This document shows, in pieces, positions 50,995 to 54,034 of a stretch of DNA of 64,000 bases (within the stretch, counting starts at the first letter, position 1; each line of letters starts with the position of its first letter). The DNA lies in the NCBI GenBank assembly GCA_027919835.1, contig JANVFP010000008.1:124001-188000 (forward strand), given 5' to 3'. The notes under the pieces were generated by a model that did no database searches, was not told the DNA's origin, and saw only the letters and a list, made by a program, of their open reading frames with translations. The DNA comes from Lentinula raphanica (Eukaryota; Basidiomycota; Agaricomycetes; Agaricales; Omphalotaceae). The position numbers and the translations under genes are program-made.

Positions 50995-51003
50995 GGATTC
51001 TGC
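50995..51003 (+). repeat. Left copy of 9-bp target-site duplication
   Basis: GGATTCTGC, repeated exactly at 54026-54034 immediately outside the other end of the inverted-repeat element. Confidence 0.85.
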
Positions 51004-51187
51004 TAATCTCGTACCCAGATGTTCTAGGGAACTCCGGCATCCCAGTGCCGCGAAAATACAAACGTAAATAACTGAACAAACAAAAAAACAAACATCGGGT
51101 CGTTCCCTAGAACATCTGGTGCGTTCTGCTACCAGGGGGGCGCCTCCTGGCGCCTCGATACACAGCCACCGCAAGCGTGACAGCCAA
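51004..51187 (+). repeat. Left terminal inverted repeat with internal 18-bp hairpin
   Basis: Pairs with 53850-54025 in inverted orientation with small indels. Contains its own perfect 18-bp inverted repeat, 51015-51032 against 51102-51119 (CCAGATGTTCTAGGGAAC and its complement), with a 69-nt loop. Confidence 0.8.
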
Positions 51188-51277
51188 CCGCGTTGGTCGT
51201 CCTTTCTTCCTTCCTGCTCGTCTCTCCCTTATCTTTTCCGTATCCGACGTCTTGCGGCTCAGCCGCTCGTGGGCCAA

Positions 51278-53392
51278 ATGGCGCCTGGCCATTCTCGATT
51301 GCAGGATCACGAGAAGGACTACAAGCGGTCTCAGAAAAAGCTGGAAATCGCTCGCATGGAGGCTTCAAGACGTACCGGTTACGATTCGAAATCAACGCGC
51401 GCTCTTCTTTCATCAGAGTTCACTCGTATTACTGGAGGCCTTTCTGCGTATACCTGGCAAATTGACACGGCCGAGGCACTTCTTCTGGGTCTGGATTGTT
51501 CAGTGATAGCGGGTACAGGAGCTGGGAAGACTATGCCTTTTGTGATGCCATTGTTTATTGAAAAAGAGAAGCGGGTAGTCATCATCTCTCCTCTCAATGC
51601 TTTGGAGGAAGATCAGGTAAGGAGATCATTAATATCACTCATTGACATGCTCTAAATTGTTCATCTCTTCATGTGTCTATCAACAGGCAGAACGGTTTAA
51701 TGATATGGGCTTATGTGCTGTTGCTGTCAATGGAGAAACATGGACTAATGAGATACATAATGTGAGTAACAGATATGTCTACTTCTTCGCTCTCTCATCT
51801 CCATCTCAGCGTATAGCAAATAATGAGTATAGAATCATAATTACATCCCCTGACATGGCGCTTGAACACGATCCATTTCGCTCCCTTCTAAGCAACCCAA
51901 AACTTGCCCAAAAAACGCTGTCAGTTATCGTAGACGAGGCTCACTGTATCTCTCAATGGGGTGACAAGTTCCGCCCCATCTACCAACGGCTCGGTACGCT
52001 TCGTGCGTTTGTACCCGCAAAAGTCCCATTTCTCGCTACATCGGCCACGATGCAACCTCTCGTCTTGGCCGAAATCCGCAAGGTTCTTCATATTAATCCC
52101 ATCGATTCTTTCCACCTCAACATGGGAACTGATCGCCCAAACATCGCGTGGTTCGTTCATCGAATGAAAGCTGCAAAATCTGATCTTAATGCCCTCAACT
52201 TTGCGTTAAGAAGAGACCTCGCAAGTAGTGAAATCACGGAGCTGGTTCAAACGATGATCTTCTTCGACGATATCAACGTCTCGATGGATGCCATGAAACA
52301 CCTTCGTGCATGTCTTCCTCCCCAGCTACGAGGACAAATTGTGGTTTATCATTCAAGGCGCTCATCGAACTCGAAACGCCGTGTTCTAGAGGAGTTCCGT
52401 TCAGGTAAAATCAAGGTTTTACTCACCACTGAGGCAGCTGGCATGGTAAGCTTGTAATGTTTTACATTCTTGTTGACATGTTTGCTCATTGCGCCAAAGG
52501 GTTGTGACTTGCCTTCAGTTCAACGTGTCATCCAATTCATGGTGCCGAAATCTCTGGCTATCTGGCTTCAGCGAGCTGGACGAGCTGCGCGCAGTCGTCT
52601 TATATGTGGAGAGGCTTTCTTATTGGTTCAACCTACAGTTTTTCAAGAGAAGAAATCCAAAGAATCCGACAACGCCGATATTGTAATGTTCAGAAAAGAC
52701 ATCGAGCCGGGTTTACGATTGTGGATTGAGGCTTCAGGTTGTAGGCGGGAAGTTGCCGCCGAGTACTTCAACGATGGTGTAACTCGATCAGGTATCGATC
52801 ATTTATTCACGATATACTCGCCCCTTCTAACATGCTCCTAGAACCTACTGGGCTATGCTGCGACAACTGCATACGCAAGTCAAATCCACGTCACCCTATG
52901 CTTCAAATAGAACAAGTCATACCTCCATCACAAAGTCCCGATAGCAACGGTGAAGAATCGTCGGAGGTTCGCGCCCCAGTCTCCAATCGTCGCCATGAGC
53001 ACCTCAGTCAAGTCCGGGTGTGTCTTGCTACTTGGCGCGATACGACCTTCAAATCAATGTACATCGAACAGCCGTGGGGTCCGCATGGTCTCCTGCCACC
53101 ATCCGTTCTTACTGCCATTGCAACAAAAGCTCGACTTCACACAGTCGAAGACTTGATCTCAGTTGCCGGATGGGGTAAAACCTTTGCACGGAAACACGGA
53201 GAGGAGGTGCTTGCTCTTGTTTCGTCTTTGGACCACGAACATCATGCCGTCGTTGAGCAAGAGAAGTCAAGAGGATCCGAAGTGAAAAGTGGTGCAGATA
53301 GATGGAGTTCTCGATTGACTTGTGAGGTGACACAGTCAAGAGCAAATTTTTCCATAACACTTGAAGCACCAAAAGGCCGGCGACTTTTCTAA
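51278..53392 (+). CDS. RecQ-like DNA helicase carried by the transposon, 630 aa
   Basis: Superfamily 2, 3'-5' DNA helicase. Five exons: 51278-51616, 51687-51761, 51810-52445, 52500-52791, 52842-53392. Motif I is GTGAGKT (residues 79-85). Motif II and the RecQ hallmark read DEAHCISQWGDKFRP (DEAH at 180-183), motif III ATSAT, motif VI QRAGRAAR. The RecQ zinc-binding part is kept: GCRREVAAEYF and CCDNC. After it a C-terminal region (LPPSVLTAIATKARLHTVED, VAGWGKTFARKHGEEVL) resembles an HRDC-like helical domain. The ATG at 51278 is chosen because it is the first after the TIR. The frame is intact, so the gene may be functional. It ends 4 bp inside the stop of a convergent minus-strand frame. Location inside a TIR element, not a host locus, distinguishes it from cellular RecQ/Sgs1, which are much longer. 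Confidence 0.88.
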
Positions 53393-53793
53393 CCACCAGG
53401 ACGCCTTGGCGGTTTGTGCCAGACCCGAACTATCCTAGGTAGCTCTTCACAAGTCATAAGTGAGTCTCGAGCATATCGACATCTCTGGTTGGAGTGACAA
53501 TCACTATCTCCATAAAACAAGGCATCCAGAAAGAGAGGAAGATCTAGACCCTGGGCAGCAATTGCATCCAAGACTGCCAGAACTGGATCTAGCCGAGAAC
53601 GACCTTTCCAAGCAAGCTTTGTTGTGCGATGGTTTGACAGTGCCATAGGCTCGGCTGGCTCCATTTCATCATCAGAGAAAATTTCCGCACAGCCATCAGA
53701 CTCATCATCTGAGATTTCATAAGGCTCGTTAGAGTTGTCATCGTATAGTTCGAAGATTTCATCAATGTCGGAAGGCGCATCGTCAGAAGACAT
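53389..53793 (-). pseudogene. Truncated N-terminus of a transposon-associated protein (DUF6589-like), 134 codons
   Basis: Single frame on the minus strand. It opens with an acidic stretch (MSSDDAPSDIDEIFELYDD) and then reads VLAVLDAIAAQGLDLPLFLD, ALFYGDSDCHSNQRCRYARD, LMTCEELPRIVRVWHKPPRR before stopping. From memory, this LDAL-x-x-GD-x-DC ... AR-x-x-LM ... ELP-x-I-x-x-W-x-KPPR pattern is the opening of large Agaricomycete proteins carrying a DUF6589 domain, often found beside RecQ-like helicase genes. There the protein continues for several hundred residues after KPPR; here it ends at once and abuts the helicase stop. This is what an internal deletion would leave. Family assignment is from memory and should be treated as moderate. 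Confidence 0.55.
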
Positions 53794-53849
53794 AGTTGAG
53801 CAGATGATGTTTGAAGACTATGTACAGACTACAGAAAACTGCCGGGTAA

Positions 53850-54025
53850 CACGGCTGTCACAGTGGCTGTGTATCGAGGCGCCCCCCTGGTAGCAGAATG
53901 CACCAGATGTTCTACGACGCAATGAGTTGTTTGTTTTTTTGTTTGTACAAATATTTACGTTTGTATTTTTCGCTGTCAACGCGGTCCGCGTTAGTCCGCG
54001 TCGTGAACATCTGGGAACGAGATTA
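53850..54025 (-). repeat. Right terminal inverted repeat with its own hairpin
   Basis: Inverted partner of 51004-51187. Contains a self-complementary pair, 53903-53919 and 53999-54014 (CCAGATGTTC then TACGACG; complement CGTCGT then GAACATCTGG), with one unpaired base. Confidence 0.8.
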
Positions 54026-54034
54026 GGATTCTGC
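54026..54034 (+). repeat. Right copy of 9-bp target-site duplication
   Basis: GGATTCTGC, identical to 50995-51003. Confidence 0.85.

Follow-up and report, generated by a model that had tools for sequence, protein, structure and literature searches.

A TIR-bounded helicase element of Lentinula raphanica, very probably a deletion derivative of a two-gene AcademH-type transposon

How did a helicase gene come to lie between the long terminal inverted repeats (TIRs) of a DNA transposon? This question is raised by an element of 3022 bp in the genome of the agaricomycete Lentinula raphanica, which occupies positions 51004-54025 of the window, i.e., the whole stretch of 64,000 nucleotides that was analysed (assembly GCA_027919835.1, contig JANVFP010000008.1, positions 124,001 to 188,000, forward strand). 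The preliminary description of the locus saw an undescribed type of element, with an intact helicase and no transposase. The observation is real except for the word intact, and a known kind of transposon, of which this would be an ordinary deletion derivative, most likely accounts for it. More specifically, the element very probably derives by internal deletion, as a non-autonomous form, from a two-gene AcademH-type TIR transposon in which a DDE transposase of the DUF6589 family and a RecQ-like superfamily 2 (SF2) helicase are encoded convergently.

The limits of the element can be read directly. It is flanked on both sides by an exact 9-bp target-site duplication (TSD), GGATTCTGC, at 50995-51003 and 54026-54034, and the tips TAATCTCG and CGAGATTA sit exactly inside the two copies, as had been claimed. 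Inverted repeats of about 180 bp had also been claimed, and alignment of the two ends bears them out: the arms, of ~185 bp, agree in 147 of the 171 columns free of gaps when their first 185 bp are aligned (199 columns including gaps). The left TIR, with the tip TAATCTCGTACCCAGATGTTC, lies on the plus strand at 51004-51188 and finds further support in the genome matches of the element's leftmost 197 bp; the right TIR, on the minus strand at 53841-54025, was also recovered by inverted-repeat detection. Within the left TIR, a perfect 18-nt inner inverted repeat (51015-51119; arms 51015-51032 and 51102-51119, 100% identical) repeats part of the tip and is a candidate second binding site for the transposase.

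These ends belong to a multicopy family, which the proposed search of the genome with the TIRs did find. Across the 49-Mb genome, the left 197 bp have at least 44 matches, two of which are the window's own, and copies were examined at the loci of 30 of these matches and in twenty further stretches. Both tips were located in 19 copies, the window's counted, and 15 of these bear an exact 9-bp duplication; the figure of 15 takes in two copies at locus L043 that share one duplication, while the 19 leave out ends without a partner (two on C44 and one at each of L040 and L049) and weaker matches that were not fetched. The duplication of the L045 copy agrees at 8 of 9 positions, and the copies at L041, L046 and on C19 have none. 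Because of the genome matches and of the 15 exact duplications among 19 copies, the TIR and duplication structure cannot be put down to chance. Most two-tip copies (14/19) measure 0.2-1.14 kb, the longer ones being that of the window and copies nested or filled by other sequence. The empty site that had been called for was obtained within the family: on C16, a 3165-bp member is nested in another member, the insert being flanked by two copies of TACTTCACC, and L039, an uninterrupted relative of the C16 copy, has a single TACTTCACC at the corresponding place.

What is left of the transposase lies on the minus strand, convergent with the helicase gene, where a 134-codon open reading frame (ORF) at 53389-53793 had been overlooked as a transposase remnant. 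In the decisive protein search, residues 45-134 of this ORF were scored and the query was lengthened by padding to admit full-length proteins. Six proteins matched at E<=10, the weakest with an E-value of 6e-15, and all six carry PF20231 (DUF6589): identity is 94% to P0183 and 87% to P0184 and P0185, all three of L. raphanica and assigned to other assemblies of the species from their differing locus prefixes, and 49-50% to three Mycena proteins. In tblastn on the element, similarity to P0183-P0185 extends past the stop at 53389-53391 to base 53260, so that the 5′ remnant of the DUF6589 gene covers 53260-53793 on the minus strand (178 codons with this one in-frame stop). It matches residues 1-172 of P0184 and 13-172 of P0185 (819 residues), i.e., about the first 175 codons of a DUF6589 protein, relatives of which reach ~820-840 aa and measure 657-819 aa in the other L. 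raphanica assemblies. The claim that no transposase is present thus holds for the MULE (Mutator-like element), hAT and KDZ kinds, none of which was found with Pfam in five scanned stretches (ORFs) of the element, and fails with respect to the N-terminal part of DUF6589.

In the genome under study, the 134-codon ORF as query finds its own locus only, and P0185 finds the window remnant and nine matches of just 23-32% identity; tblastn of the ORF and of six DUF6589 proteins on the fetched loci returned the window remnant and weak matches at L071 and L073. A likeness to the DUF6589 N-terminus of the C26 group is visible by eye and does not reach significance with BLASTP, phmmer or hmmsearch. This genome yielded neither an undeleted copy with exactly these TIRs nor a second insertion with the identical deletion.

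The helicase gene, on the plus strand, is modelled with five exons, all with GT-AG borders, that encode an ORF of 630 aa: exon 1 (51278-51616), with the Walker A region GTGAGKT, in the DEAD domain; exon 2 (51687-51761); exon 3 (51810-52445), with the DEAH box, in DEAD and Helicase_C; exon 4 (52500-52791), with the motif QRAGRAAR, in Helicase_C; and exon 5 (52842-53392). Pfam recognises DEAD and Helicase_C, with an HRDC match below its cut-off; RecQ-family helicases are the closest solved structures among the best 60 of 140 matches (1oyw first, E 6e-36), and the L. raphanica protein P0002 is a 100% database match. Exon 5 derives from the helicase as far as about 53259 (codon 587) and no further. 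Because base 53260 falls in codon 587, the last ~43 codons before the stop are antisense to transposase DNA. Seven relatives (P0003, P0006, P0008-P0012) measure 709-868 aa against 630 aa in the window; their BLASTP alignments stop at window residues 596-627, and their identity drops from 33-73% at residues 500-587 to 15-33% past 587. Judged by these comparisons, the helicase is not intact, its C-terminus being truncated at the deletion junction; of the "complete five-exon SF2 helicase" first described, the five exons and both domains stand, and completeness does not.

Since similarity to helicases ends where similarity to the transposase begins, a single internal deletion appears to have removed the 3′ parts of the two convergent genes. 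The junction is placed at 53259/53260, to within some bases, from the tblastn of P0183-P0185 and the helicase comparison. A point against so clean a junction is that a second copy of the helicase, on C2, agrees with the window at 77 of the 97 bases that precede the junction and still at 16 of 24 bases after it. This C2 copy (G000:C2:1208615-1210650; L053, L056 and L057) has 80% DNA identity to the window copy over 2056 columns; it is without TIRs, has NETH in place of the DEAH motif and is flanked by two direct repeats of ~420 bp, 80% identical to each other. L. raphanica has two similar proteins on record, P0001 and P0004; these copies in other assemblies stop near the same residue as the window helicase.

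The core helicase motifs are unbroken in the window copy, and the ratio of nonsynonymous to synonymous substitution rates (dN/dS) against the C2 copy, the single comparison at hand, is 0.22 over 580 codons, which by this measure shows a helicase under constraint. Together with the perfect target duplications, these features would suit a functional new type of element that moves by its helicase alone or by a host transposase, the DUF6589 remnant being irrelevant. Such a type is very improbable, given that the helicase is truncated at the deletion and that ends and duplications are the same in copies that show no similarity to the helicase, from which it follows that a helicase in cis is dispensable. 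An element type without any transposase was likewise rejected, as the DUF6589 remnant was found and the helicase is cut at the deletion.

Two-gene relatives of the window element do exist in this genome. A search with PF20231 gave 37 matches that fall into 18 loci, and at 16 of them a convergent RecQ-like helicase match lies at most 4 kb away (none at those on C14 and C21). The RecQ-like helicase is therefore a regular component of such elements rather than the product of one capture event. The helicases beside DUF6589 are ~24-31% identical to that of the window in their main matches; 20 of 36 helicase loci are without adjacent DUF6589, the window and the C2 copy among them. Three two-gene elements of 5.84-5.87 kb were read to both ends, with duplications of 9, 9 and 8 bp: C26:632709-638563 (5855 bp, GTGCTGAGG on both sides), with ends from a scan for a duplication plus tip and a conceptual transposase of 1086 aa; and, with ends found by the C26 tips, C5:350242-356112 (5871 bp, duplication CAAATTTGT) and C27:366879-372718 (5840 bp, TGTATTCC, 8 bp exact). 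Their tips start with TAGTCT, those of the window family with TAATCT. Taken together, the DUF6589 remnant, the truncated helicase and these relatives lead to the reading of the window element as an internal-deletion derivative. As to the proposal that longer copies might hold an additional gene, DUF6589 is found in the related two-gene elements, and no transposase of that kind was seen among the ORFs tested in the longer copies bounded by the family's own TIRs (L031, the C4 copy and the L036 insert).

The pairing of the two genes also bears on the origin of the helicase. Long TIRs and a 9-bp duplication, both present here, are features of MULEs, and they would fit a MULE that had captured a host RecQ helicase gene. 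This is extremely improbable, since the transposase remnant is of DUF6589, the full DUF6589 relative P0187 has PF20231 as its sole Pfam match at E<=0.01, and the helicase accompanies DUF6589 at 16 of 18 loci. MULE identity was thus rejected, no MULE transposase being present in the scanned ORFs or in P0187. The preliminary description had itself considered a deletion derivative of a known family with a MULE transposase; the deletion derivative is upheld through the two-gene relatives and the proteins of other assemblies, and its transposase is DUF6589.

Several further copies deserve mention in their own right. At the C16 insertion site, near the right tip of a 720-bp copy, L037 (G000:C36:79221-80893) reads TACTTCACC-C-TACTTCACC, likely an excision footprint, with a plain tandem duplication as the alternative. 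At L043 (G000:C30:89791-98799), two 712-bp copies 7.3 kb apart have the identical target duplication GCAGAAACC. This points to a local segmental duplication, in which one insertion was probably copied with its flanks. The two ends on C44 lie 17.8 kb apart without a common duplication. A 5942-bp member (L031:1001-6942, G000:C3) is filled by a Copia-type element with Pfam RVT_2 and copia-type gag above cut-off, whose identical 426-bp long terminal repeats indicate a young insertion. The C4 copy (L032/L033, G000:C4:757911-769336) is TIR-bounded over 11,426 bp, has the exact duplication GTGGAAGAC and is filled by other sequence; four of its ORFs tested gave no Pfam match, and some ORFs appear by eye KDZ-type transposase- and TET/JBP-like. 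Three ORFs of the 3165-bp insert in L036 gave no Pfam match either. At L045 (G000:C14:1024505-1025537), a 1033-bp member with a helicase fragment lies directly upstream of ORFs leading into a DUF6589 gene that has no helicase partner.

Pfam lists DUF6589 (PF20231) as of unknown function. Its predicted model resembles the transposases of the P element, Hermes (hAT) and RAG1, P element and hAT being closest with middling Z-scores, and D301, D470 and E715 are conserved. The model suggests an RNase H-like DDE fold in which an all-helical insertion precedes the catalytic E, the triad and the insertion being our own assignment. In mushroom genomes, DUF6589 proteins most likely serve as transposases for DNA transposons that carry a helicase. 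The identification of DUF6589 as a transposase was not found in print within the literature searched, where no paper names DUF6589 and the sole match to PF20231 is an unrelated optics paper; the available parts of PMC12730594, PMC12210899, PMC9674265 and PMC8290104 hold nothing on DUF6589, and the term is absent from PMC12510652.

From these observations we infer how the window element may have arisen and moved. The parent element, judged by its relatives in the same genome, would have measured ~5.8-5.9 kb. Its DUF6589 transposase would bind the TIRs, excise the element and insert it at a target whose strands are cut 9 bases apart, which would account for the 9-bp duplication; transposase supplied in trans would mobilise both the members of 0.2-1.1 kb and the window copy. 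The most likely task of the helicase would be to unwind the cut ends or the DNA at the donor gap, thereby aiding the gap-repair synthesis that copies the element back. Such a role in excision-gap repair is suggested because P-element gap repair needs the RecQ-family BLM helicase. Gap repair that aborts is known to leave internal deletions and could have produced a deletion of the kind seen in the window.

In this way, a puzzling element that joins a helicase to TIRs becomes an ordinary deletion derivative, and a role is suggested for a widespread uncharacterised family: DUF6589 would be the transposase of helicase-carrying DNA transposons. If so, Agaricomycete genes annotated "hypothetical" or "DNA 3'-5' helicase" may often be parts of transposons. 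Two-gene elements read to both ends, such as that on C26, provide systems for studying what a transposon-borne RecQ helicase does.

Among known transposons, Helitrons have no TIRs and no target duplications and encode a Rep/Pif1-type protein. The window element resembles them in carrying a helicase; its TIRs and target duplication and the RecQ-like nature of the helicase led to the rejection of Helitron identity, in keeping with the earlier view of a helicase within a TIR transposon with a 9-bp duplication. P and hAT elements have no helicase gene and make 8-bp duplications. DUF6589 shares with them, in its predicted model, the RNase H-like DDE fold and the helical insertion before the catalytic E; an element of either kind was rejected, as the window family makes 9-bp duplications, P0187 has no Pfam match to hAT or P, and the likeness is one of predicted fold only. 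The AcademH lineage of Academ DNA transposons, reportedly defined by Kojima in 2020 (Mob DNA 11:15), comes closer. According to the available part of PMC10045372, AcademH makes 9- or 10-bp TSDs, which are related there to its helicase; the available part of PMC10799480, the only paper that a search for AcademH together with RecQ returned, names DEAD and Helicase_C as domains of AcademH, KolobokH or Helitron and records AcademH as present in Basidiomycota, Ascomycota and Mucoromycota. Because AcademH has been reported in these excerpts with a helicase and such TSDs, also in Basidiomycota, the combination of TIRs, helicase and 9-bp duplication is not undescribed, and the claim of a new element type does not hold. 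In Marasmius oreades, putative non-autonomous MULE and Academ elements are described as widespread (PMC8290104, in part).

The entry of DUF6589 in Pfam, the silence of the literature searched on this family and the closeness of its model to P element and hAT transposases would also accord with a superfamily of its own, apart from Academ, that acquired its helicase independently; this is unlikely, as TSD length, TIRs, the DEAD and Helicase_C helicase and the host phylum all match AcademH as described in the excerpts of PMC10045372 and PMC10799480. A bolder version, in which DUF6589, paired convergently with the RecQ-like helicase, founds a distinct Agaricomycete superfamily that brings its own BLM/RecQ-type enzyme for excision-gap repair, is similarly doubtful. 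For the derivation from an AcademH-type parent speak the 9-bp duplications of the window family and those of 9, 9 and 8 bp in the two-gene relatives, beside the 9 or 10 bp given for AcademH in those excerpts; the TIRs of the window element; an SF2 helicase with DEAD and Helicase_C, here RecQ-like and C-terminally truncated in the window; a predicted DDE-type transposase in the two-gene relatives, of which the window retains a remnant alone; and a basidiomycete host. The window copy differs from AcademH in lacking most of the transposase and the C-terminus of the helicase. The fit is one to the published description, not one of transposase homology, and all the features that could be tested agree with it.
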